Origin: Sialis fuliginosa
Taxonomy: Eukaryota; Arthropoda; Insecta; Megaloptera; Sialidae
Length of the DNA: 64,000 nt
NCBI GenBank assembly: GCA_961205875.1
Contig: OY540810.1
Location: forward strand, 30,566,001 to 30,630,000
Direction: 5' to 3'
How positions within the stretch are numbered: the stretch's first letter is position 1; every line of letters begins with the position of its first letter. Under the pieces are notes generated by a model. The model did no database searches and had not been told where the DNA came from. It was given only the letters and a program-made list of their open reading frames with translations. Positions 2,782 to 52,411 of the stretch are shown one piece after another. A program made the position numbers and the translations under genes.

Positions 2782-3228
2782 TTTTAAAACTATAGGACCA
2801 GTGAAATGTCAAAAAATCATAAACCAGCACAACTATTAAGCTGGGCAACTCGCAAATTCATAGAGAATAAAGCAACAAACATAGATAATGTATGTATTAT
2901 AAATTATACCATTTATAAAAATTTGATTGCATGACCTAGATGCTCTAGTTATAAAATAAATAATAAGCATCAGTTTAATTTTATTTATTTTTGGTATTTC
3001 TTATTATTATATTTTATAAGTTATGTTAATTATAAATTCAGTTTACTGCATATTTTGAGCTAATGTTATAATTATAAACTTTTGATATATGTATTTAAAA
3101 TATTCGTTATAACAATCGTAACAGTACAAATTATAATGTATTCAAATTTTTTGGCGTCAATATAAATTTAAAAAAAATAAATTTTAAATTCTTATTTATA
3201 GAAAGTGTAACATTATATTATATAGATA
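2782..3228. promoter_or_regulatory. Upstream region of the zinc-finger gene (shared intergenic)
   Basis: The zinc-finger gene reads left from 2781 and the secreted-protein gene reads right from 4199, so their promoters must lie in the 1.4 kb between them unless further non-coding exons exist. I see no clear core promoter motif here. The stretch is AT-rich and otherwise featureless up to the MITE. Confidence 0.3.
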
Positions 3229-3769
3229 GTCCTCAGTACGTCGACCCTTTTGTTAATTTATTGCCATACTTCTGAAACTTCGTGAGTGGCTTCTTTTTGA
3301 CGAGTCTAACAACTTTGTTATTTGCGAAAATTCTTAAAAATTAGACATTTTCGAACGTGCAACTGCAGAATTTTCCGAGCGACGGACTGGAAAAACGCTC
3401 CAAGATATTTGTCGGACAAAATGATCAATGGATTGCAACTAAGATAATATAAAAATAGAGAGGTATCACCTAGTCTGCCATCTCCAACATGCTAAATAAC
3501 GAGGTTATTATAGTTTATTACCAGCTACCTAAGATTTGTAGGATTATTAAATAATTATTTTTACAATCCATTGGTCATTTTGTCCGTCAAATATCTTGGG
3601 CTGTTTTTCCAGTCCGCCACCGGAAAATTTGGCGGCTGCATGTTCGAAAATGCCCCATTTTTAAGAATTTTCGCAAATAAAAAAGTTGTTAGACTCGTCA
3701 AAAAGAAGTCACTCACGAAGTCTCAGAATTATGGTAATAAATTAACATAAGGGTCGACGTACTGAGGAC
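3229..3769. mobile_element. TA-flanked long-TIR MITE (541 bp)
   Basis: The ends gtcctcagtacgtcgaccc and gggtcgacgtactgaggac are perfect inverted copies. Inverted similarity continues for about 200 bp on each side, leaving a middle of about 140 bp. A TA dinucleotide flanks both ends (3227-3228 and 3770-3771), which fits the target duplication of Tc1/mariner-type elements. There is no transposase frame inside, so it is non-autonomous. It sits between two divergent genes and could affect the promoter of either. Confidence 0.85.
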
Positions 3770-4198
3770 TATAATAATAGTATTTTTGAACATCGTTTAC
3801 AAAAATAATCGATACAACTTTTATATACATAATTTGAAAAGGTATAAAAAACAAGATATTTTAGAATAAAGTACGAATAAAGCTTTAGATTTTTATAATA
3901 ATTTTCAGCAGTATTCAAGGAAATTAGCATTGTTGATGTTTACATGTTTTACAACTCAAGTAATTATTTCGTAACCGTTGACGATTTACAGAAGGTGACA
4001 AGAATGTTTATATTATGCATTGAACAATATTTTTGTATATTTTCATTATTTAAAGTTACATTATATATTCACATTGACACATTAAAAAAATGCAACGAAA
4101 GCAAATTCTTCGTAGTACAGTATAAATGGTCTCAATAAACCTTGAAAATCTTAGTTTATTTAGTGAATTATTTAGCCAAGTTCCATTAATGACTTGAA
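3770..4198. promoter_or_regulatory. Upstream region of the secreted histidine-rich protein gene
   Basis: AT-rich DNA directly before the first coding exon. TATA-like strings occur at about 3842 (tataaaaa) and 4121 (tataaat). Neither can be assigned as the real TATA box from sequence alone. A leader exon here is possible. Confidence 0.25.
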
Positions 4199-7100
4199 AT
4201 GGTGAATAGGAATACTATGTTAACAAAAATTTGCGGTTTTATATATTTAAGTGTTATTTTTCACATAGGTAAGTTATAGTATATTGAAAATTAGTGCGAA
4301 TAGATATTTTTTCAAATCAATTAATTTATTTTATGCAACGATAAAATAAATTTTAGGAAATTGTTCACTTATTCTATTATTTAGTTTTTAATAGTTATCT
4401 CTCTTTCAATATTTTATTTACCTATGCATTTCTTTGAGTTTTATTAATGTTTTTGATCAATATATAGTTTGATATTTTTTAATTAAAATACTATAATATA
4501 AGTATAATGAAAATAGAAAATAAAAATTATTTTAATTTTGCTGAATTTTTTTCAAAAACTAAGGTGAGGTAACCTAAATGTCTTTAGATAATTTAATTTC
4601 AAGTGGCCTAAACTACATCTACAAAAGCTCATTGCGATTGGCGATCCAAAATTTGTAGTCCTTCCATGTGTATAAGATTTTTAGCTTTATATTAATTAGG
4701 TACCTAGGTACCTATTATTATATTAAAATTATATATTTATTATTCATTTTGGAATAGTATCTACACGTATTATTTGCGATTATTTTTTAATAGATAGGTA
4801 GGTAATATTTGTGGTTCAAACTTTTATTTCTCGTAACACATTTCGAAACATATTTAACGTTAGTTAAAATACGGAAAGAAAGTTTTAATTGCTAACTGCA
4901 AATTATCTGTAATAGTTTCATTATTCGTTAATGTGTATTTTCAGCGAATTTTTTCTAGAAGTCTGAGTTGCATAAAAATCCGTTAGATAAAAATTTGTAT
5001 TTAATTTCAATAGAATTTTTCAAAAAAACGTTAAATAATAAATTTCTCCTAAAAAACATGCATAGAACAAAAGTAGATAAAATGATAGAATTTTTTAATC
5101 CTGATAATTTTGGTTCAATCTACACCTAATTTTATTGTAATAAACAACTACACAAAACTTAAACCAAAAACAAACATTTTTAAGAAATCAAATTTGGTAT
5201 ACAGTATACCGTGTGGGGGTTGCAACACTATTTACGTAGGTAATACATCACAAAAACTTATCAATAGAATAACACAACATAAATCAGATACAAGATTAAA
5301 ACCAACATCCACAGCATTAGCAGTACATACAAATAGTACAGGGCATATTTTTGATTATAAACAAACTAAAATTTTAGATAATGAAAAACATAAAGCTAAA
5401 CGTTACATTTCCGAAATGTTACACATAAAAAGAAACAATAATACAATTAACAAGAAAACTGAAATATCCACATTATCTACTATTTACAACACAATTTTAA
5501 ATAATTAATTATTGTCATTTTTTAAATCAATTTTTTCGTTCCTTAGTAACTATTTGAGTTACTAAGAGATTTGTTATTTTTTCAAACATTTCCGTAGTCA
5601 CATGAATTTTATTGAGATAACGACATCTTTCTGAATTTTTATTTTAAAATATCAATATTTTGCATTATATTTATTGTATTTAATTGTTACTTATTATATT
5701 TTAGCCTGACGATGATTCTGTGAATCGAAAGCTTGCGGTTTCCTCTTCTTTAATAAATTTTGACGTTTAAACAAACAAGTTTGTTTTTATTTATATTTAA
5801 CGTCACTACTATTATATTATCAAAAATACATCATATATATTCGTGCTTCAATAAACTTTCATTTGACATCCTACACGATGCCCTTGATTTTTTTGTCCAT
5901 TTTCCTATCAAAATTAAATTTTTTATACTTCACGTCTATAATTGGGCCACCACACTTTATCTCTGTGTTAAATTTTAGTTTCAGAGAAAATCGCTTGTGA
6001 CAGACGGACGGACGGACACCGAAGTGATTCCATAAGTGTTCCGTGCAAACGGAACACTAAAAATAAATATTTTTTTAATAAAATGATATTTATTTTAAAA
6101 AATTAAATGAATACATTTTTTAATCAATGTAACCCTGCTGTTATTAATATTTTTCGTGACTATTATAAGCTATATTGTTACAGTAAGCTCGCACCCCGTG
6201 AGCGACAATGACAGCGACCCAAGCCTTGCGTGGCACTGCTCCCACATCTGCGAGACGTGCAACGGCGAACCACAGTACAACGACGCCACGGAGACGTGCC
6301 ATTGCGTCCTCAGGCCCGCAGAGACAGAGGAAGGTATGTCACTACCAATTAAATTACAATGTCAAATATGACTCGTTTTTGGTTTCAGTGTACTTTTCAA
6401 AAAAAATATTAATTTAACCTTCCGTTAGGCGCGCGGATTACTAAAAACTGTTACATACTTACAACTAATACTAATATCCTATTTACACACGCGCCCTTTT
6501 GATTAACTGTTAAAAACACTTCCTTGTATATTGTCAGTTAGTTAGTTGAAGTGTTTTAGTGCGATATCGTGAGTTATAGCGAATTAAATACAGTGTTTAA
6601 AAGAGTGGCTTAGGTATGTAATCCGCGCGCCTAACGAAAGGTTAAATATTTTACCTATGTATTTGCCAATAGTTAGTTTTGGTTTTGGTAATAATTTAAT
6701 AATAAAACATCGATCTGATATGTTTTCAATTTAATTAACATAGTCGTTTTGGTTTTTAGTGAATCTAATTTTACTTATAGATTAGCCTCCAAAGTATAAA
6801 TCAAAATCTGAAACTGTCCTCTTGTCCTGAAAGCAATTTTTATTGAAAAAATGACCTTTATTTGTTGTTCTTAATACTATAAACTAATGCTTATTCATAA
6901 AAATATGCGATAAAACATTTTTCAATTGTTGTATGTTTTACAGATAAACTGTGCCGAGAAGCAATGAAAGTGAACGCCAAAGTTCTAGAAATACCGTTAG
7001 AACTGGAAGGATTGAATTCAAGATGTAAGTATTTAATTTTAAAAAGCGACTGTGTAATTTTAACTAACTAAATAAGCGAGCGAAAAATTTCTCGTAAGCA

Positions 7101-9721: not shown

Positions 9722-10266
9722 TTTGTGTTAGTTTTTATTACCAACATAGATAGTCAACAATTAAAACTTTTGCAACTGTCACTTGTTTTTACGATTGTAG
9801 ATTTTTACACAGTGTACCATTTTGATGCTCATTTTTTCGCATAAACAATGCGTGTGCAAAGTGGTTTAATACATTTTTCATAGTGCTTGAAATGTTATTT
9901 TTAATTTGCACATGTTGTAAACGTATTGCGCATAAGTTGATGTGTGCCAGACGATAGCCCCCAGTAAAAGAGTTTATTTTTAAATCCTGTGTCTTCATTC
10001 AAACATTGTTAAGAAAAACTTCTAATATACATATTTACAATACATATATATAGCAGTGTTTTCTAAACAATATCGTTGACATGTATTTTAATTTACGCAA
10101 AATTTATAGATCTAAAAACTAGAACGCTTGGCTTGTTTTCATGTTTGTAAACTGTTTAGAAAGAATTAATAAAAGAATGAAATAATGATTTGGAGAAACA
10201 TATGTTTTAAAAGCTTTAGAAATCATGTCTTTATTGTTAGTTTCTTAATTTATCTCTCTCTATATA
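9722..10266. promoter_or_regulatory. Upstream region of the small membrane-protein gene
   Basis: Non-coding DNA before the start at 9721, reading leftward. A weak frame on the minus strand at 9789-9998 has no supporting features. No clear promoter motif was found. Confidence 0.25.
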
Positions 10267-11418
10267 CAGGGTGGCCCGGTTTGGGATACAGATATTTTAG
10301 GAGCTGATTCCTTGGCTCATTGTAAGTAAAAAATTGTACGAGAAGGCGGGGTCTATTTTCAACACCCTCTGAGTTACAGGCTGTTTAAAAAGTTCCTTCA
10401 GAGTATAATAATACTTACAAACTAAGATTATCTCATAACTTCCAAAGTAACGTAACTAGAGCAACAATAATGAGTCAGTTTTATAGGTAATTAACTAACG
10501 TATTTCTCGGTATTAGAGTTATTACCAGCCGTGTTTCCAGTTCAGAGTTATTGCTCATCAAAGTAAAAAATATATATATATATATATTTTTAATTTTTAT
10601 GAAAATGACATTTTTCTCCAAAAGTACCTACAATATATTATATTTTTTATCATTATTTTGGTGTGTCATAATGTTACTTACAAATTCAATATACGAAGTT
10701 TGGACCTGGGTCTTACAGTTTTTCAGTTATAAATTTATCTAAATAATTCCCAAAGTGACTATTTTGCTACCTACCCAATTAAATGAAACAGTCATACAAA
10801 TTTTTTGTTTATAATTACATAATTTTTATAATTATTGGTAATTTACATAATTTTAAAACCACAACAGGTGCTCAAAGCGTATTTATGTAATTATAGACAA
10901 AACATTTGTATGACTGTTTCATTTAATAGGGTAGGTGGCAAAATAGTCACTTTGGGAATTAATTTAGATAAATTTAGAACAGAAAAACTGTAAGACCCAG
11001 GTCCAAACTTTGTATAGTGAATTTGTAGGTAACATTTTGAATTTTGATAAATCAAAATAATGATAAAAAGTACCATACCTATATTGTAGGTACTTTTGGA
11101 GAAAAATGTCATTCTCATAAAAATTTTCAAAAAATAAATATATTTTTTGACTTTGATGAGCAATAACTCTGACCTAGAAACACAGCTAGCAATAACGCTA
11201 ATACTGAAAAGTACGTTAATTAATTACCTATATGAAATTTTTGAAGTTATGAGATAATCTTTGTTTGTAATTACTACTCTGAAGGAACTTTTAAAACATC
11301 CTGTAGCTCAGAGGGTGTTGAAGAGAGACACCCCCCCCCCTTTCCGTACATTTTCTTACTCACAGTGAACCAAGGAATCAGCTCCTAAAATATCTGTATT
11401 CCAAACCGGACCATCCTG
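10267..11418. mobile_element. Foldback element with CAGGGTGG ends (1152 bp)
   Basis: The left end cagggtggcccggtttgg and right end ccaaaccggaccatcctg are inverted copies, and nearly the whole element folds on itself with arms of about 550 bp and a short centre near 10.80-10.89 kb. TA flanks both ends (10265-10266, 11419-11420). The matching small frames in the two arms are mirror copies, not genes. It resembles other CAGGRTG-ended palindromes in this window. Confidence 0.85.
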
Positions 11419-12924
11419 TATATATAATGTGAATAAATATACCTAATGATGCACTTGACGTATAAATGCAATATAATTACTTCCTTTTAAAGTCTTTGTA
11501 AATGCGAGGGGTCTTTTTCAAACTATTATCTTGTCGGTCTTCATATTTATTATTATTATTATTGATAAAGATATATGACAGGAAAATTGGAATTGTTTCT
11601 TACCTTTTATCTACTTTTGTTCTGAAATGTTAATATAGAGAATGATTCAAATAAATAGATTTTTTTATGTAAAAAAGATTTTTATTATAAACAAAACGAA
11701 CACGAATAAATGGTATTTTAATCTACTCTATTCGTTTATAACAATATATCTAAAAACAATATAATAATAATTAGAGTAATAAATTAGCTTCAATGTCTTT
11801 GATATGCAGCAAAACGCTGTCAGTTTTTTTAATATACAGAATTTATCAAGACTGGGAACCGGGGAAAATTATTGAAAAATGAAATTTTACAAAATAAAAG
11901 TACGTGTTGGATTTAAATCGAAATTGTACAAATTTTTTAACCGGTCCCAAGCCCTGATATAAGTGTATAGTCTTTTTATTTTTCATTGTCTTTATTTCGA
12001 ATTATTTAAAAATTACAAACAATAAAATAGACGCCGATTTAAATTGAATTTACTACATTTAACACAGTAATGTTTTGAACAAGTAATTAACTGGCAGTTA
12101 GGCGATAGTAACGTCTATAATTATAATAATTTGGGCTAAAGTGGTGTCATAACAACTATCAGTTAACTACTTTGCGTCCATTTTCAATTGTTGCAATTCC
12201 ATTTATTCGAGTTTAAGAGTCTCTCGAACAGTATGATATTTATAAAATATTAACTATAGAATAAAGGTAGTGGGTGTGACAATTTATGTGTAGAGTAAAA
12301 ACAGACGTAATTTAATTTCCGTTTAGAATAAAATATATCATGTCGATTGTCGAGAGACTTTCAGTACCAAATAGAATCTGTGAGCGTTTAAGTCAATTAG
12401 TTTCCATCACTTAATAATCTCCTATAGTTCAATTATTTCTATATAACAATCAACAGAGAATTGTTCTTATTTTCGGCGAAAGAGCTTATACTACAAGAAA
12501 CATTCTTATTTCGGTTTCAGTGGGTTACTCAGAAGGGGTTAACTTTTGGATACAAATACTATTTGTGTCTTAAAAAATTACAAAATTGTTTAATATATTT
12601 TATATAACAATAATAACAGAAAGTTATTACTTTTTGTGTATTTCAAACTTCATCCACTATTCACGATGAATTAAATATAACACGATTATATTCCGCTAGA
12701 ACTATTATTTGAACAGTAACTGAGACAATAAATCAACAGAAAAAACATACCCCAGTAAATAGGGGTAAAACAAATCGTCCCCCAGCATCTGAACAGTGGC
12801 ACATATAAAAATATAAACAAACATCTGCGTACAATATAACTCACAGTTACTATTTTGATTCATACACAAACGCGCCATTTTCTATTTATCTGAGCACCAT
12901 TATTGTATATAATTTCAGGCAGAT
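11419..12924. other. 3' flank or 3' UTR of the LRR gene
   Basis: AT-rich DNA downstream of the LRR gene stop codon at 12927-12925. It probably includes its 3' UTR. I could not choose a poly(A) site among several minus-strand AATAAA candidates (for example TTTATT near 11680). No other gene is seen. Confidence 0.45.
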
Positions 12925-15900
12925 TTAAGAGCCCGTTGTTCCCATTGAGGTAATGAAATGCGGATGTCCGCTACTGTGAGCTGCTCCCGCTTCGCCACTC
13001 TGAATCGAGAAGTGACGATAGGAAATATACTCGGGCGGTATCGGTTGATCACGTTTAACAGCGGCCCTCTGTTTCTTCACTTTCAAATACCCGAACACCG
13101 TTACCATAACAAGAAAAACAAAACACCCTAAGCCCGTACCGATTATAAGTCCGAGTCTCCTGGTTAAGATTGAAGCGATTCCAATCCCTCTGTCTGCAAC
13201 GGTTCCTCCTTCGCCTAGAAGACTGTCTGGAGCATCTAAAGTGCGAACTTCAGTGCACTTGCTCGTTGGAGAGTCGACCAGAAGAGGAAGGATGCTGTCG
13301 CCGAAGATTTCTGAGGTATCTCTGTTGGTTGTGTCATTTTCTGTTTTTTTCATCACATGGAATTCTGGAAGGACAAAGTTCTCTGAAGACCCCCAGGTCC
13401 CGAGACCTAGCACGCAGATCAGATACCGAGTATTTGGGATAAGTTTTTCCAGTTTAACTGACCGCGTTGTGCGATCCATCATTTTACCCAATACTTGCAT
13501 CTGAAAGAAAAAAAATTGTAAATACATTATAGAAAATATTAACCTTTATATTACATCACTGTTTGTTGAAAAAAAGATTATGATTAATTAAAATGAACGA
13601 AATTGGATACAATTGAATATATTTTATCAGAATAATAATATGTGAGCCTTTCTTATATGAACTTAAAGTATCAATAAAAATCACAACTAGGGCTCCGTGA
13701 TTTTTTTAAATTTATAACTTTTTATTTGAAATACCCAGCGACGACTCTGGGTTCAAAAACTTTTGTTAAATTAGCATAAAATAGTTAATAAACTTATTAT
13801 TTACATCGAAAATGTTGTCGATCGCGTGGTACGCGACTTGGTATGCATTGACGCCACTGTGTTCGCGGCTCTGCCACGACACGAGCACGGAGAACGGCTG
13901 AATGTCCTGGATGGCGAGTTTCACTACAAGCGGTGCCGCGCACAGTTGCCGCGGCTCCAGCTCCAGAAAAGCGTAGCCGCGCAACTCAGCCGGTTGCTCG
14001 CAACGCAACGCGCGCAGACGTTCTATGGACAGCAATTTCTGGTGGTCGCGCAGCCACTGCCAAAGCTCCTGCGCATTACAATCGCAGTGGATCGGGTTTT
14101 CTGTAATGCAAAAGTACTTATATTGAAAAAAAAGTTACGACAATCATGAAATATTTCAAATCCTTGAAAGTGGTATGACTTTAAGTTGACTTTAATTGTT
14201 ATATAAACTGAAATTAGCAGTTTTGCAGACTTGAATTTTTAAAACTTAAAAAAAAACGGTTCATGTTTGTTTGTATTTACTCAAAAACTACAAACCATAG
14301 AATTGTAAATTGTTTATTTTTTAGGAAAATATTAATTATTTTAGAAACGCATCAAGATTTCAACGGAAATTAAAGTTTTGTCGTAAACTAATCAATTATA
14401 AAAACTTTTGAAACAATCAGTATTTATTACTAATAACTTAATAAGTACCTATAAGAAAGTTCTGTGTTAATAAGCATGGAATTTCTTTTGTATAATCAAC
14501 AATATTGCCTTCGTTTAGATTCAATTCATTTATATTTTCAACTTCCTTATACATATAAATCAAGAATTTAATTCAAAATAAGTGGTCTATATAAACACTT
14601 GTAAAGATCTTACACCAAATGTTTTCAATCTTCAAGTTGCCGTCACTTTATGTTATGTAGTGTATTCCTAACTTACTACATATTGGTAGCACTGTTTAAA
14701 GGTAAGTTGTGAGCGCAAACATTCTACATACTCTATACAAATATCTTACAAACTTTGTCTTTTCCAACTGAGTATTGACATTCATTCAATCAGCGTATCT
14801 CAAACTTTGTATATAATTACAGGGTAAAATCTTTGTCAAGTTGTGACATATTGTTAAGACGAACATTTACATACTAATTATACCTGGACTTGTTGGGACT
14901 ATTAGTGACTAATAATTAAACATTAATTTATTATAAGTAAGCATATTGTAAAATATTGATAAATTAATTAAAAAGGTTCGGAACAAGATGTGTAATTTTA
15001 TTAAATAATTATAATTTTAATTACCTTCAGTTCTAAGACTTCTAATTTGCGTTTCCAATGGACGAAATGCGCTGAGAGGTAAGTTTTCTAAATAATTCCT
15101 ACTCAAGTCGAGTAGTCTCAGTTTTTTCAGCGGCCTAAATGCATCTGCAGAAACGGCAGAGATCCAGTTCCCGTACAAATGCAATTCAACTAGATTAATC
15201 AAATTCTGGAATGTTCCTTTACTGATACGTCCGATCTGGTTAAACGACAAATCAAGTATCTGAAGAGATTTCAAGTTTTCTGGAAACTCCTCCAAGTCTT
15301 TGAGCCTGTTATGTGTTAAGTTTAACACTTTTAACACGTGCAGACCATGTAAACGTTCACGAGGTAAAAGTTCCAATTCATTGATACCTAAATCTAGTGT
15401 TAGTAGATTAGGTAGACTTATGAAAGCCCCAGGTGATATCCTTGAGATCCGGTTTCTTCCCAGAAACAAATGTAACAAAGACGGGAAAGCCTCGAAATCT
15501 TTACTCGTAACTATTGTTAAATTAGTTTCACATATGTGAATCTCTTCCAATGTAGGATATCGAGGAGAAAATGCAATGTCATGTATCCTGACTAAAGGAT
15601 TCCCTGTCAGATTAAACCAGGTTAATCCTGGAAGAGTCTGCTCAGAAAGGGACGAAGGTATTTGTTTGAATCTATTTTCTGAAATATCAACGCGACGCAG
15701 TGATAAAGAGTTGCAGAAAAAATTCGCTGGGAGTGCATTTAAAGCGTTTCTACTTAAATCTACTGACACTAGTTGAGTTAAATTTGTTGTGGCGAAACCC
15801 GAAAGGGAAGATAATGAGTTCCCTTGCATATATAGACTTCTTAAATTCGGCAAACCGTTCAGCCGGGACACCTCAATGACTGTTAATAAATTTTCGGCAA

Positions 15901-18286
15901 AAGACAATATCTCTAATGTAGATATATTTAGTAGGGCAGTGTAGGGAAGTTCCGAAAACTCATTAAAATCCAATCTGAGTTCTTTGAGAATATTCAAATT
16001 AGAAAACGCACTATGTTTAATTTCATTCAAGTGATTGTAATTCAAATTAATATTCATTAGGTTTTTATTCTTACTAAATAGATTTTCGGGTAAATGAGAT
16101 ATATTACAATTATCTAATTCTATCGACTGAAGAGACGGCAACCCTTCAATTGTCGAACCAAAAATGTCACTTAAATTATTCTTCGAAATTCTTAAAACCC
16201 TTAAACCAGGTATATCTAAATGTCTTAAGTCTCTGGAAGATAAATTGTTCAATTGTAAATCGAGTTCATTTAAATTATTCAATCCTTGAAAAGCACCCTT
16301 ATCTATCTGGGATATTGAGCAATTCGTTAGATACAATAAGCGTATCGGTAAACCTTCTTGAAAAATGAAATCATGCAAAACTGCTATGTCGTTATTCGAT
16401 AAATCAAGCGTTCTCAGTTTCTTCAGGTTAGTCAAAGCGTAGGCGTCGATGATTTGTAGCCCGTTATTTGACAGATACAACTCCTCCAGCTCGTGAAGTT
16501 CAGCAAAAGTGCTTCCGGTTATCCTTTTGAGTTTGTTTAAACTGAGGTCGAGAAACTTGAGCGCTTGCATCGGCTCGAACGCTCTGTCTTCAATGTGAGA
16601 TATGCTGTTGTTTGTCAAATACACTCGCTGTATCAGAAGTAAATCACTGAACAAAGTTCTGTCTATTCTTGTGAGTCTGTTGTGACCTAACCACATTATC
16701 TGGACACTCGATTGTCCACGGAGCGAGTCGTTATGCAACACTGCAATGTTATTTGAATCTAACTGAATCGACACTAACGAAGGTGACTCATGAAGAAAAA
16801 TATCATCTAAAGTAGTTAACATGTTACCTTGTAAATTTATATGTTGTAAACTTTGTAAACTATGAAACGCGCCCGACTCAATCACAGTAATTTCGTTGTT
16901 TTGTAGATGCAGTTCTAACAATGCAGGAAGAGGGTCGAACACACCACGTTTCACGTTCGTGATGCGATTGTTCTGTAAACGGATTTCCCTAAGGTCTACT
17001 AACTTATTGAATGTATCTATTTCTAATTCAGTTATCCAGTTACTGTCGAGGCTCACAGATGTCAGCATGTGTGTATGGTCGAACAGAGATTTTGGTATGC
17101 CAGGAATGAAATTTGTACTGAGGTGTAACTGCGCCAAATTTGATAAGGTGCTCAATGCATCTTTGTCTATCCTTCTTATCGCATTTTGCTGTAGATAGAT
17201 AACAGAGATCATGGAGGAGAAGGTGAATGCATCTGACGGTAATTCGAGAATATTGTTCTCAGATAAAAACAGTTCTCTCAGTTCTGGTAAATTTGTAAAC
17301 ACTCCGTTGATATAATGTATGTGATTGTGACTCAAATCTATTGTACGGAGCTTCTTGTTTGTCTGAAATGTTATAGGATCGATGAAGACAATTTTATTAT
17401 GACTGAGATCTATCGATTCCAAGTCATCCAACGTAACGAAAGCATTTCTGTGAACAGATTCAATAGAGTTGTAGTATAATGAGAGTGTTCTGATCGAAGG
17501 ACATGGATGGAAACAGTCAACAGGAAGTTCCTCAAAGTTGTTTGAGCTTAGATCCATAAACACTAGTGACTCCAAACGTGAATAACCGTCGTTCGGTATA
17601 GTGCTGATCTCGTTCCAAGCAAGACGTAGTGATCTCAGTCTTTCGAGTCTACGTAATGCGATGATGGGAAAGAACTGTAACTTGTTTTCAGACATATCGA
17701 GCTCCGATAATGCGTCTTCGAGACCAGCGAATGCATATTCTGATATCTTTTGCAGCCGGTTGCCTTTAATATTGAGTTTTATCAAATGCAATCCATAAAA
17801 ACTATAACTGGGTAGATCTTTAATCTCGTTCGACTCTAAATCCAATGCTATGAGTTTTGCCAAACCCCCGAAAGCTTTTTGTGGTATCTGTTGTAGTTTC
17901 CCAGACACCAAACTGAGTGATTCGAGTTCTGGTTTGAGGACGTTTAAAGAATCATCGTGCAGCTCATGTAGATTCGACTGGGATATCTGAAGATGTTTAA
18001 TCACCGTTTTCTCGGGGAAGAAGTTCTGCGATAAAAACGTGACGGATCTGTCGAGGTCGTAGACGCTGAGTGATTGTATTGGACCAGAGACGATATGAAG
18101 AACGTTACGCAATGATTCCGTGGTTGCCGCGGGACACTCGAGGAAAATGCCGTCATCGAAGTTGTAGCACGGACAAGACGGGTTGGCGGCGAAGCTCGGA
18201 CATTTGGGCGTATCCTGGGTGGACAGCGCGACCACCACCAGTAGCAGGGCGGCGGTTGGAAACAGGCCATCACAAAGCGTCATCAT
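12925..18286 (-). CDS. atk: Membrane-anchored LRR/FN3 receptor-like protein, Artichoke-like
   Basis: Three coding exons fit by splice sites and phase: 18286-15025, 14100-13805 and 13500-12925, giving 1377 residues. Residues 1 to about 24 form a signal peptide. A cysteine-rich cap follows (CPSF...CPCYNFDDGIFLECP, about 29-51). Then roughly 40 leucine-rich repeats fill one uninterrupted 3.26-kb exon up to about residue 1085. Exon 2 gives an LRR C-terminal cap (NPIHCDCNAQELWQWL, later two more Cys) and a fibronectin-III-like domain (about 1140-1220) that continues into exon 3. A membrane segment lies at about 1302-1325, and a short tail carries PPEYISYRHFSI. From memory this architecture and tail match Drosophila Artichoke, an extracellular LRR protein needed for cilia of chordotonal neurons. 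A cell-surface adhesion role in sensory organs is therefore likely. Chaoptin is the main alternative but is GPI-anchored. The second ATG (codon 2) is an alternative start. Confidence 0.85.
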
Positions 18287-18300
18287 GCGCCGCCACCCAT
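18283..18300 (-). promoter_or_regulatory. Six-codon upstream ORF overlapping the LRR gene start
   Basis: ATG at 18300-18298 opens a frame ATG GGT GGC GGC GCA TGA. Its stop overlaps the main start (ATGA at 18286-18283). If the leader is as drawn, ribosomes must skip or reinitiate to make the LRR protein. Confidence 0.5.
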
Positions 18301-18350
18301 CTCAGTTTGTTGTAGCACGAACACGACGGAATGGCAACCAAATGGTAGTA

Positions 18351-35240: not shown

Positions 35241-35502
35241 CCAATCGGAATATATTCAATGATTGTACGTCACAACCCGTCAACAGAACACGAGAAAGAA
35301 ATGTGAATTATATATACCTACAAACTCCTCTCATATAACACACAAGGGCGCTGTTAATCAGTTAATGAACATTTATAACTCGATTCCAAAATACTTAACT
35401 GAACTGAACCTACATACTTTTAAAAAAGCTTATAAGAACTACTTAATTGGTGAATGTTTGTATTCCACAAAGGACTTTACCAAAACTTTATCTATCTTTT
35501 AA
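35241..35502 (+). pseudogene. Non-LTR retrotransposon (LINE) 3' fragment
   Basis: The frame ends with IYNSIPKYLTELNLHTFKKA, then YKNYLIGECLYSTKDF. This is the pattern 'N-x-(I/L)-P ... F-K...YL' found at the C-terminus of jockey/CR1-like LINE polyproteins, just after the reverse transcriptase. Nothing of the reverse transcriptase itself is readable upstream, so it is a 5'-truncated dead copy. It abuts the large palindrome. Confidence 0.6.
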
Positions 35503-35666
35503 TTTTATATTTTATTTATTGTGATTTTATATACTATAACTTTATATATATATATTATATACAATTTAAATATACTTATTTTGTAGGGGTTTTTTTTCAG
35601 GTCAAAATATTAATTAAAGAACTAAACCAGTGTTCAAATCATTTTAATTAATAGCGCTTATTTAAT

Positions 35667-35690
35667 TTTCAACATTTTTGTCTTCATCAG
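35667..35690 (-). ncRNA. Hammerhead-like core, left palindrome arm
   Basis: On the minus strand CTGATGA (35690-35684) is followed by a short AAAA-looped stem and GAAA (35670-35667). It is the mirror copy of the core in the right arm. One unpaired base lies between the core and the stem. Catalysis is unproven. Confidence 0.35.
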
Positions 35691-36355
35691 AAATTAACAA
35701 ATTATCCAATTTAAACAGTAATTGGTGTGTACATTTGTATGTAGTAAAAGATGCATATTACATCAAAAAAATTTTTTTTTAATATTAAAAAGTACCCATT
35801 CTTGTACAAAAGACTAAAAATATGTAAATGTGATATCAAACAGATAAAACAATATATAAAAACAATTTTTTTTAAAAATTAAAACTTAAAATTTAGTTTA
35901 AAAACGTTAAAAATTAATAAAATTCGTATCACATTATATCACATGTTGAAAAGTATTTATAATAAGATATAGCTTAATTAAACAAGAACCATCAATTGTT
36001 TTTACTTAAAAATAGTTACAAATTTATTATACTATTTTAAGTAAAAACAATTGATGGTTCTTGTTTAATTAAGCTATATCTTATTATAAATACTTTTCAA
36101 CATGTGATATAATGTGATACGAATTTTATTAATTTTTAACGTTTTTAAACTAAATTTTAAGTTTTAATTTTTAAAAAAAATTGTTTTTATATATTGTTTT
36201 ATCTGTTTGATATCACATTTACATATTTTTAGTCTTTTGTACAAGAATGGGTACTTTTTAATATTAAAAAAAAATTTTTTTGATGTAATATGCATCTTTT
36301 ACTACATACAAATGTACACACCAATTACTGTTTAAATTGGATAATTTGTTAATTT

Positions 36356-36379
36356 CTGATGAAGACAAAAATGTTGAAA
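36356..36379 (+). ncRNA. Hammerhead-like core, right palindrome arm
   Basis: CTGATGA (36356-36362), a possible stem GACA-AAAA-TGTT, then GAAA (36376-36379). This follows the order of the hammerhead core and stem II. The stem is weak and carries one extra base (A36363) after the core. It suggests that the palindrome derives from a Penelope-like or retrozyme-like end. Confidence 0.35.
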
Positions 36380-36533
36380 ATTAAATAAGCGCTATTAATT
36401 AAAATGATTTGAACACTGGTTTAGTTCTTTAATTAATATTTTGACCTGAAAAAAAACCCCTACAAAATAAGTATATTTAAATAATATCAAGATGGTCATA
36501 TATATGAATACTAATATATTATATACATACATA

Positions 36534-36650
36534 TAATATAATAGTGGTGACGTTAAATATAAATAAAAACAAACTTGTTTGTCTAAACGTCAAAATGTAT
36601 TCAAGAAAAGGTAATCGCAAGCTTTCGATTCACAGAATCATCGTCATTAT
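36534..36650 (-). mobile_element. Penelope-like 3' end, second copy (inverted)
   Basis: This is the reverse complement of the 3' end seen at 5703-5820. The blocks gacgttaaatataaataaaa, acaaacttgtttgt, cgcaagctttcgattcacag and aatcatcgtca are shared. In this copy the first C of the hammerhead-like core is changed (ATGACGA). No coding part remains on the side checked. Confidence 0.75.
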
Positions 36651-43330: not shown

Positions 43331-44024
43331 ATCAAATTGTTAAAAAATAGTAGTTCGTAAAACATTGTTCTACAGATTCAATTTTTTTGTTTTAATTTGT
43401 TGGAGTGTGTGTTCTGAATATTACATTAAGTTGGCGCTGTCTATGACCTTGAGCGTAATCCGCGATAAGCGCGAAAAATTTTAACGTAATTATCTCGTAA
43501 ACCGTTCATCCTATGATAAAATTTGTCTTAACATTTTTTGTTCAATAGAGTTGAATTTACAAATTCTCTATCTTCAACTGGTGACAAGATATATAGAAAA
43601 AGAGTTGACAAAAATTATTTTTTACATTTATTTCGTAAAAAACTTCAATATTTTTTTTCATAGCCACCATTTCGTAAAAATCATTGTTTATGAGTTATAA
43701 CCGACGAAACATTGCAAGAAATAATTTTTTGTCAACCCCTTTGCATTATATCTCGTCACCAATTGAAGGTAGAAAATTGGATCTGTGAACAAATTTGTAA
43801 ATTCGACTCTGATGAACAAAAAAATTTAATGACAAATTTTATTGTAGGATGGACGGTTTACGATATAATTACGTTTAAAGTTTTCGCTCTTATGGCGAAT
43901 TACGCTCAAGGTCATAGATCGCGCTAACTTAATGTAGTACTCAGAACACCCCCCCCCCCCTCCCCCAATAATTAAAAAAAAATACTCTGTAGAACAATGC
44001 AGAAAAACAAAACAACTTGATTTA
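43331..44024. mobile_element. Foldback element, about 690 bp, with a C-run
   Basis: Left blocks (aacattgttctacag, ttctgaatattacattaag, gaccttgagcgtaat, aaccgttcatcc) recur inverted on the right, with arms of about 300 bp. The ends (atcaaattgtt / aacaacttgat) are approximate and no target duplication was fixed. A run of 12 C's lies at about 43950-43961. Small frames here are mirror images. Confidence 0.75.
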
Positions 44025-49882: not shown

Positions 49883-50694
49883 TGATATTTCTAACTGTAA
49901 ATAGATTTAATTAAAATATGTATTGAATGTATACAATACTTCCCGCTTTACCAGTACCCAGTTTTACGAATTTCCCTAGTGAACGTGATTCAACCATTCT
50001 TTCCTATTTTATCAATTCCCGCTTTTCCAAGCCAATTAACTCTTAAAATGGAAAATACCTGTACTTTCAAATATGTTTTGAAAATATCAACTGAAATGTG
50101 TTATAAAACATTGACCAAAAAGGTACTAGCTAATTATGTATAATTAATCAAAGAAATAAATGTACCATTTACATTTACAACAAAAGCCATACATATTTTA
50201 AAACTTACATTTTTCAAATTAAAATAATTATGTAAGTTGAAGAGAAAATAAAACATACTTTTACTACACGGAAATAGGTTAAGTAGATTAAATTCACCCC
50301 CTTTTAATAAATTAACGAGTAGCGACAGTAATAAAGAGCGTTATTGACTGTAGTAAAATAACAATTTATTGAGTACATTCAACATTCTTTACAAACTATT
50401 CCAGATTACGTATTTATAAGAATTTATTTTATACCACGTGGTTTTACTGGGTTACTGGTTTTATTGTTTTTAGCAAAGATTTTTATTTTATTTCCTAAAG
50501 AACAATACATTTAAAATTACATTATTTAATCATGGATACCACAAACAATACATATAAAAAAAAGATTTTATATTCATTGCTTCAAAAATTAAAGGATACC
50601 TACCTAACTTTTCATATAGAAAATATCTTTCTGTCATATTATGTTCTTACTGGAAAAACGATGAAAATGGTTTCTCAGTCACTTAAACTAAAAA
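49883..50694. other. Gene-free region
   Basis: AT-rich, no coding signal beyond a chance frame at 50532-50753 that runs into the repeat at 50.7 kb. Confidence 0.3.
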
Positions 50695-50822
50695 TATACT
50701 CCTTAACCACAATAAAAAAAATGTCATCCGACACGTGTTTCGACTTCACATGAAGTCCTCATCAGGAGCTTCGAAACACGTGTCGAGTGACATTGTTTTA
50801 TTATGGTTGAGATGTATATTTT
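50695..50822. mobile_element. Inverted pair of Penelope-like terminal fragments
   Basis: cttaaccacaataaaa...gacacgtgtttcga and its inverted partner tcgaaacacgtgtcgagtga...ttatggttgagatgtatat have about 50-bp arms around cttcacatgaagtcctcatcaggagct. The block gacattgttttat is shared with the copy at 51.3 kb and a related one at 58.0-58.1 kb. Confidence 0.65.
50730..50765 (-). ncRNA. Hammerhead-like core with CACGTG stem III
   Basis: On the minus strand: CTGATGA (50765-50759), one extra G, a perfect stem GACTTCA-TG-TGAAGTC, GAAA, then CACGTG and TC. This matches the order core, stem II, GAAA, very short stem III and cleavage site (GTC) of a hammerhead ribozyme. The extra G and a weak stem I make activity uncertain. 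It is the best-preserved core in the window. Confidence 0.5.
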
Positions 50823-51319
50823 TAATTAAAATATTATGTTGTATTTACACTAGAAAGATAATATAGTAACACGGTGTTTTTTGACAAAATAGCAACAATA
50901 GCTATATATTTTTAAATACGAATTATTTTTTTTAAACACCATGTTGTTGTTTTGTCTTGTCTCGATGTAAACACGGCATTAGCTGAGTAGTTTATGTGAT
51001 GCTAAGAAATAATTAACATTGATGTGAGTTGTGACAACTTAAAAAATGAGCAGTTTAACCTACCAAAAATCTTAATAAAACTGATAAAAAAAATTCTAGT
51101 TTAAGGCGTGAAAAATTCAATTTTACAAATAACTGTTAAACTGTTTGGAATATTGAATTGTAATGATCCGTAAAACAGCATAAATGTGATAAAAATTTTA
51201 ATTTGGAGGGGATATAATGGTTACATTATTTGTAGGCTATAATGCGGTTCAATTTTCGATGTTGTAGCAATAACTTTTGATTAGCAGAAAATTTTGATTA
51301 CTGGAAAATTGAACTATTA

Positions 51320-51385
51320 GGCACCTGATGAGGACATCTTGTGAATTTGAAACACGTGTCGAAAGACATTGTTTTATCGTGGTTT
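51320..51385 (+). ncRNA. Hammerhead-like core, decayed copy
   Basis: CTGATGA (51325-51331), then ggacatcttgtgaattt where the stem should be, then GAAACACGTGTC (51349-51360) and gacattgttttat. Core bases are kept but stem II no longer pairs well. It is in the opposite orientation to the 50.7-kb core and 0.6 kb away. Confidence 0.4.
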
Positions 51386-52411
51386 ATGTGAATATATTTA
51401 GTTTAAGTGACAAAATTTTCAATCAATTTAACCGAAATCTTTAAAATTATTAGTTATGTTCATTGTTTTTATTCAATATAATTAATATGTACCTAAATGG
51501 AAAAATAAACATTCATTATTTTTTAAAAATGAATAGAAAAGAAATTAAAAATAATGATACTCTTTACAATTTCTACATTTTCAAAAAAAAATCCAAAATT
51601 TAAAAAATTGAATAAAATTGATACCAAATATGAAATTTGTATATTGTCGTTTTTGAGTTTCTAGCGTCTACAAACAGATAGACAGACTGACATACAATCG
51701 AAAGTAAAAATATTATGATTATTCAATTGAAATGTATGTATTAAAAATGAAACTTAGGTAGTAACGTCTGATAAATTAATTAATTAATGTCATTACAAAT
51801 ATGCATTTGAAATTATGTTGAATTGCAAAATGTAAGTACTTACAAAGTACGTAAAATGTAAACATCTTCGTATGATATTTCTGAATCCTCCCCTGTATGT
51901 ACATTAATACTGTATTAGACATGGAATACAAGCATTGATATGGGTACCCAGCCAGCTTCCCTACATTGCAATAAATATTACATTGATTTGAGTGGAAAAG
52001 AAGAAGCCAAAATCCTTAAAAATATTTCACTCTTATTTATTATTTCTCTACGAAAAATATGTAATGAACATTGAAATTGATTTTCTCTCTTATTACATTA
52101 TAATATGGATATTTATTATAACATATACCTCCACATTTAGTAACTGTATAGTTTATATTTTATATCAATCAATATTTTATTTAATTAATTTAGCAGATTG
52201 AAATTAATAATTATATATTATTATTTTTACCATTGTTTATTTAACAATAAATAAATCAATAAAGTGCCATTTCAGAAATCAATTAAATATTAGATAATTA
52301 TTATAAGAATTCTATAAAAATAGTCACGCGAATTCTTTAAATAAATATAATATGCATATACAAAAAAAATCAAAATAAACAGAACGTGAAAATATTTAAA
52401 CATGAACTCAC
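51386..52411. other. Gene-free region
   Basis: AT-rich. A gacagactgaca run near 51678 suggests a retroposon tail. No exon continuing the candidate minus-strand gene at 52.4 kb was found. Confidence 0.3.

Follow-up and report, generated by a model that had tools for sequence, protein, structure and literature searches.

Insertion mode, head-to-head copies, the nature of the tail and the keeping of introns are long-standing questions for Penelope-like elements (PLEs). According to the sections of PMC3846280 on the endonuclease-bearing Penelope of the bdelloid rotifer Adineta vaga, copies of this element have inverted pLTRs that are mostly head to head with palindromes at the junctions, one of the inverted pLTRs can carry an optional tail (a 31-bp extension; one pLTR 37 bp shorter), and insertions show target-site duplications (TSDs) of 8-10 bp, AT-rich targets and partial tandems. 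Self-priming on an antisense template was proposed there as compatible with intron retention, and more experiments on antisense versus sense templates were called for (PMC3846280, published in 2013). For Poseidon PAc of Anolis carolinensis, the purified protein is reported to cut and extend both strands in vitro, and two internal starts of reverse transcription bound the tail (PMC11167929). Metazoan retrozymes are described as repeated in direct tandem and equipped with canonical type I ribozymes (PMC7229834).

The locus studied here lies in a 64,000-nt stretch of the genome of Sialis fuliginosa (C2:30566001-30630000; hereafter the window), and the genome-wide searches covered 392 Mb in 20 contigs. 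Two arms of 448 nt each (35564-36011 and 36035-36482) pair with no mismatch. Seven positions in the left half of the palindrome (919 nt overall) are unpaired, every one of them central (36012-36020), and a repeat finder reported a 453-nt inverted repeat of a rounded 100% identity. With the composition of the window, log10 p is ca. -241 for 453 paired positions, which rules out chance. Seven other self-inverted repeats of the window (blastn, E <= 1e-10; at 3.2, 10.3, 31.0, 31.6, 40.2, 43.4 and 50.7 kb) have identities of 73-88%, and no second arm-like sequence within the window matched with more than 37 bits (blastn). The initial annotation had described the arms as free of mismatches and the remaining foldbacks as diverged, and both descriptions held. 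It had also named a very recent insertion as one of three options: zero mismatches over ca. 450 sites set a 95% upper bound of 0.66% on arm divergence, and at a fly-like mutation rate of 2.8e-9 per site this corresponds to an age of less than ca. 1.2 million generations, so that the insertion is recent within that bound.

The surroundings of the insert are a TA-rich tract. To its left, 35263-35499 looks by eye like the C-terminal end of a LINE protein. The right neighbour (36533-36646) looks by eye like a Penelope-like end, as had been noted before, and is 94% identical to 5707-5820, which ends an ORF fragment at 5.1-5.8 kb. This fragment (5089-5820), GIY-YIG-like by eye and sharing the 114-bp end with 36533-36646, perhaps belongs to a third PLE family; it had no homologues and no relevant Pfam match. 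Older foldbacks at 10261-11424, 3226-3772 and 43363-43999 (73-80%) have no sequence in common with the insert and are perhaps DNA-transposon MITEs. The window also contains a chaoptin/artichoke-like leucine-rich-repeat gene in one open frame of 1094 codons (15017-18301), whose best listed homologue is from Timema (68% identity).

Table 1. Features of the insert, in window positions.
Feature	Position	Strand	Basis or remark
Left target-site duplication TTATATACA, possibly 14 bp (ATATATTATATACA)	35555..35563		Direct repeat of 36519-36527
Left unit, PLE pLTR, untailed 3' end at 35564	35564..36032	-	blastn to one tandem PLE unit and alignments
Hammerhead-like core and stems, left unit	35645..35690	-	Descriptor
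Exon-exon junction TTTAAATT/GGATAATTTG, intron missing, left unit	35707..35708	-	Alignments, pattern search
'Spacer', 23 nt	36012..36034		Left unit's extra 16 nt and junction; overlap ca. 2 nt
Right unit, PLE pLTR, tailed 3' end at unit position 950	36031..36518	+	blastn to tandem PLE unit and alignments
Exon-exon junction TTTAAATT/GGATAATTTG, intron missing, right unit	36338..36339	+	Alignments, pattern search
Hammerhead-like core and stems, right unit	36356..36401	+	Descriptor; Rfam gave no score
PLE 'tail', codons 1-9 of the PLE ORF (MVIYMNTNI)	36492..36518	+	Agrees with the beginning of the 889-aa ORF
Right target-site duplication TTATATACA	36519..36527		Direct repeat of 35555-35563

The whole insert occupies 35564-36518 and is bordered by the 9-bp direct repeat TTATATACA (Table 1). 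Earlier coordinates of 35564-36482 are correct for the arms but end short of the insert, because the right unit is 36 nt longer in element sequence. In the coordinates of a tandem PLE unit with the ORF start at 924, the left unit spans positions ca. 341 (inner end) to ca. 914 and the right unit ca. 357 to 950. Both align over their full length, the intron apart, to the pLTR of the tandem 3593-bp PLE unit (blastn), and the spacer contains no foreign sequence. At the right, the insert enters the PLE ORF by 27 nt; codons 1-9 are its only PLE coding content, and it is thus not an autonomous copy.

A search of the same genome with the arm, which had been suggested earlier, returned at least 82 matches (40 of the 398 candidate places scored) and revealed copies and ends of a PLE. 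In arrays with a period of 3593 bp, the arm sequence is located directly upstream of an 889-aa ORF and runs into it, and at least 51 such ORFs are uninterrupted (51 of 51 scored, of 1032 candidates). The ORF has 25 homologues (best E value, 4.7e-146). When four homologues were scanned with Pfam, RVT_1 was detected in two (P0121 and P0131) and GIY-YIG in three, while a scan of the 889-aa ORF itself yielded no relevant Pfam domain even at an E value of 10. Residues 314-888 of the ORF aligned with P0133, a GIY-YIG protein by Pfam, with 35% identity. Since the scanned homologues carry RVT_1 and/or GIY-YIG and P0133 aligns over residues 314-888, the parent element is almost certainly a young, endonuclease-bearing PLE. 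The spacing of pLTRs in the same orientation is mostly 3560-3605 bp, as in tandem units. One tandem array at C10:1-42685 (L009, L028, L010, L029 and L030) contains 11 uninterrupted ORFs in units 99.75-100% identical to one unit, and its units meet head to head ca. 22.6 kb from the contig start. More PLE ORFs lie near contig ends (C10:64-90 kb, C7:61-90 kb and C3:36.75-36.77 Mb of a 36.78-Mb contig); others are contig-internal.

The arm was absent from viral contigs and genome contigs (exact scans) and from phage sequences (blastn), collections that may omit the window's own genome. A kinship of the arm with the other PLE ends of the window was considered and rejected: alignments remained below the 95% shuffle score in six of six cases. 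Of eight scores for the 3' part of the arm against these ends, two were reached by 6 and 8 of 1000 shuffles and the remaining six by 47-466; when the core was kept and the rest shuffled, the former two were reached by 23 and 220 of 1000. The arm and the other PLE ends of the window therefore represent different families.

The Penelope element of D. virilis has an intron in its 5'-UTR. Intron-bearing copies of the Sialis PLE contain a segment of 83-95 nt, GTAAGT...TTATAG, between TTTAAATT and the hammerhead-like core (95 nt in L009, 87 in L022, 85 in L015, 84 in L020 and 83 in L058). This segment is gone from both window units, leaving TTTAAATT/GGATAATTTG; a spliced junction would read either so or with TGATAATTTG on its right side. 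Two pattern searches of the genome (<=3 mismatches) returned 17 intronless junctions (3 + 14), which are distributed over ten short inserts: two in the window insert, two in each of L011-L016, and one in each of L017, L018 and L019. All ten are without the ORF in the fetched stretch. The pattern for the intron-bearing 5' junction gave 375 matches as compared to 20 for a reversed control.

The intronless sequences form four classes, namely the window insert, L017, L011-L014 with L016, L018 and L019, and L015. In every class, the junction bases match the spliced product expected from some intron-bearing copy (L020, the tandem arrays, L015_solo and L058-L060, and L061, respectively). Counted over unit positions 470-674 and 773-905 in 16 chosen arms and the unit, and away from the splice site, no differences were observed between intronless L017 and intron-bearing L022 (0/338), L011 and L015_solo (0/328), L012 and both L058 and L060 (0/328), or L015 and L061 (0/150). 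The window unit differs from L022 at 2/328 and from L020 at 3/327 positions (splice-adjacent columns excluded), and none of the intron-bearing copies found carries every variant of the window unit. As several intronless copies are otherwise identical to intron-bearing ones, the segment must have been lost on two or more occasions, and its borders were GT..AG on each of them. Since both window units are without an intron that is present in intron-bearing copies, the most likely template was a spliced sense RNA that was reverse transcribed. The intronless inserts might instead descend from intronless master copies and not from fresh splicing in each case. A strict rule that short copies are intronless was dropped, given that L058, L059, L060, L061 and positions 828-1368 of L023 are short head-to-head pairs yet intron-bearing.

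The missing intron bears on two other explanations. In one, the arms are an assembly or sequencing hairpin artefact, as their perfection would allow and as the initial annotation had considered. A genomic hairpin formed from an intron-bearing copy would yield the intron in the arms, and elsewhere there are nine more short inserts without the intron, of which eight are two-sided. The left and right flanks differ, the insert is bordered by a 9-bp direct repeat, the tail is on one side only, and both arms share variants relative to other copies. An artefact is therefore very improbable. In the other, the second arm arose by self-priming, in which one cDNA or antisense RNA folded back and copied itself, as has been proposed for the head-to-head copies of PLEs in bdelloids (PMC3846280). 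An antisense template would retain the intron, which is missing at 17 junctions in ten inserts.

Self-priming was further evaluated at the centres of the inserts. The inner ends lie at unit positions 412/510 in L016, 404/897 in L017, 412/893 in L019 and 412/none in L018, and thus vary independently between the two units of an insert. The palindrome spacer, with runs counted up to 400 nt per side, is 0 nt in L058 and L060, 2 in L012, L013 and L059, 4 in L011, 7 in L014, 12 in L061, 18 in L022 and 23 in the window insert, while L010 and the main array of L023 consist of unequal parts joined without a long palindrome. Both spacer-free centres keep the intron, and such centres were seen in the intron-bearing class only. 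Because a loopless strand cannot fold back, the spacer-free palindromes look like two annealed cDNA ends, unless a loop was lost later; they speak for the joining of two cDNAs rather than for a single hairpin. In line with self-priming, a 5-nt stem with a 14-nt loop can be drawn at the centre of the window insert, but this 'loop' is the left unit's own continuation. Likewise, spacer-free L058 and L060 and the unequal inner ends of L016, L017 and L019 are not what a hairpin would leave, unless they were altered later, and loops or inner parts could indeed have been lost after insertion.

Mismatches within pairs, with gap columns skipped and L017, L018 and L019 (without a full second arm) omitted, numbered 0/376 in the window insert and 0/377, 0/376, 0/376, 0/375, 4/343 and 2/289 in L011-L016, respectively. 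Perfect or near-perfect arms are the rule in this PLE family. Identical arms in five of the seven measured pairs are in line with self-priming and also make ongoing gene conversion an unnecessary assumption; two separate templates would have to be two RNAs from one source copy or from near-identical copies. Taking the centres and the missing intron together, self-priming seems unlikely. The inner ends of the intronless inserts are mostly near unit positions 402-418. A transcription start in this region was considered, and AT palindromes there could cause a like clustering.

At the outer ends, one tailed and one untailed end were observed in all 18 two-ended insertions examined (p = 7.6e-6 if the ends are independent), where 'untailed' denotes absence of the tail motif (<=3 mismatches) near the outer end and outer ends were placed by hand. 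The count omits the one-sided L018, L020 and L015 solo copy, as well as L024-L027 and the array at the C10 start, for which the fetched sequence did not cover both ends or showed no clear one. Orientation was counted with exact matches on contigs C1-C4: among 100 listed intron-bearing places of the 375, which form 32 clusters (places <12 kb apart; a single pLTR in five), 28 of 29 neighbouring orientation changes are head to head and one is tail to tail. The sole tail-to-tail pair (C3:33678992-33679509) perhaps represents two insertions into one TA tract. TA repeats flank most PLE inserts, and by eye the flanks of L011, L016 and L020 are the same TA tract of repeated host sequence.

With its symmetrical arms, short spacer and palindromic ATTTAAAT at both ends, the window insert resembles, by form alone, a foldback or palindromic DNA transposon whose terminal inverted repeats are perfect, and the window contains seven diverged foldbacks. 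Nevertheless, the arms consist of a PLE pLTR and an ORF start and lack a GT-AG segment, and all 18 two-ended insertions examined have two unlike ends. Moreover, ATTTAAAT is element sequence and not a TSD; a DNA transposon with ATTTAAAT as an 8-bp TSD had been a candidate and was abandoned after the genome search. We regard this origin as improbable in the extreme.

As previously claimed, both arms contain a hammerhead-like core; it reads CTGATGA..GAAA, has possible stems I-III and faces outward in each arm. The stems were assigned from the hammerhead consensus. A stem-and-core descriptor, which was written after the sequence had been seen, matched the arm with its real core but none of 143 versions with a scrambled core; out of 4000 Markov sequences, each 453 nt long, it matched three. 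All 53 loci checked, a large part of which overlap, contain the 24-nt hammerhead-like core; because the copies are so alike, this presence is no evidence of selection. The arm core received no score from Rfam even at an E value of 10, and this is a weak test because the 5.7-kb PLE-like end likewise goes unrecognised by Rfam. An Rfam hit to mir-5365 at the insert centre, below gathering, was rejected as the palindrome itself. Elsewhere in the window, older inverted sequences at 50683-50830 and 51321-51411 have outward hammerhead-like cores and perhaps belong to another PLE family; Hammerhead_1 scored 15.3 bits at 50726-50768, below gathering (Rfam).

The initial annotation had hypothesised a head-to-head pair of Penelope-type or retrozyme-like units. 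The PLE pLTRs bear out the first possibility, while the second finds no support, the units being inverted and derived from an ORF-bearing PLE. The hammerhead-like core in both arms and throughout the family would suit a retrozyme-like unit that spreads via circular RNA produced by hammerhead cleavage. Its units, though, would be expected in direct tandem and not inverted, and the outer ends are at PLE tail positions rather than at a ribozyme cleavage site; the core is also without an Rfam score, with the reservation given above. A retrozyme-like origin is very improbable.

Based on these results, the window insert is a genuine, recent, ORF-less head-to-head PLE insertion that was probably made by both-strand priming on spliced sense RNA, and two-sided priming seems to be the best of the models. 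Judged from the sequences, it probably proceeded as described below. The element protein would cut both strands of TA-rich host DNA, and each free 3' DNA end would prime reverse transcription on sense element RNA close to the start codon; copying from unit position 950 would give the tail on one side, and copying from ca. 914 the untailed end on the other. In both template RNAs, the 5'-UTR intron would already have been spliced out. Synthesis would proceed toward the RNA 5' end, so that no ORF is copied, and the free cDNA ends would then be joined, probably via microhomology, leaving two 5' regions head to head.

For the family as a whole, we lean slightly towards an obligatorily asymmetric two-sided target-primed insertion, in which sense RNAs are copied from two fixed starts ca. 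35 nt apart, one for each target strand, and the cDNAs anneal at self-complementary stretches; spliced mRNAs copied from the first start would yield the intronless 'strong-stop' head-to-head pairs. If this is true, the asymmetric two-sided model would replace antisense self-priming for this PLE family and give one common account of the tail, the introns and the rule of head-to-head joining. With intronless inserts beside many near-identical intact copies in one genome, the questions raised at the outset become testable by sequence and RNA.

Compared with retrozymes, the Sialis units are alike in being short (a few hundred bp), non-coding and provided with a hammerhead-like motif, and differ in being inverted PLE 5' regions instead of the direct tandem repeats described in PMC7229834. 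With the A. vaga element, as described in the sections of PMC3846280 cited above, the Sialis PLE shares inverted head-to-head pLTRs, junction palindromes, a one-sided tail, a TSD (9 bp at the window insert), AT-rich targets and partial tandems. In contrast to the intron retention there, ten short ORF-less inserts in Sialis fuliginosa are intronless, and two intron-bearing pairs are without a central spacer. Likenesses to Poseidon PAc are the tandem units, a pLTR with a hammerhead-like motif, a start just inside the ORF, a tail lying between two starts, and AT-rich targets (PMC11167929). However, the commonest start of Poseidon PAc is 111-118 nt into the ORF as compared to 27 nt in the Sialis PLE, and its two strands were not seen to differ in start site, unlike the one of each in 18 of 18 Sialis insertions; the relevant sections of PMC11167929 make no mention of spliced copies. 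Neither precise loss of an intron from head-to-head pairs nor a strict rule of one tailed and one untailed end was found in the pertinent parts of PMC3846280 and PMC11167929. By their sequences, the Sialis inserts appear to agree with the both-strand extension reported for Poseidon PAc, while their intronless class appears to disagree with the antisense template proposed for A. vaga.
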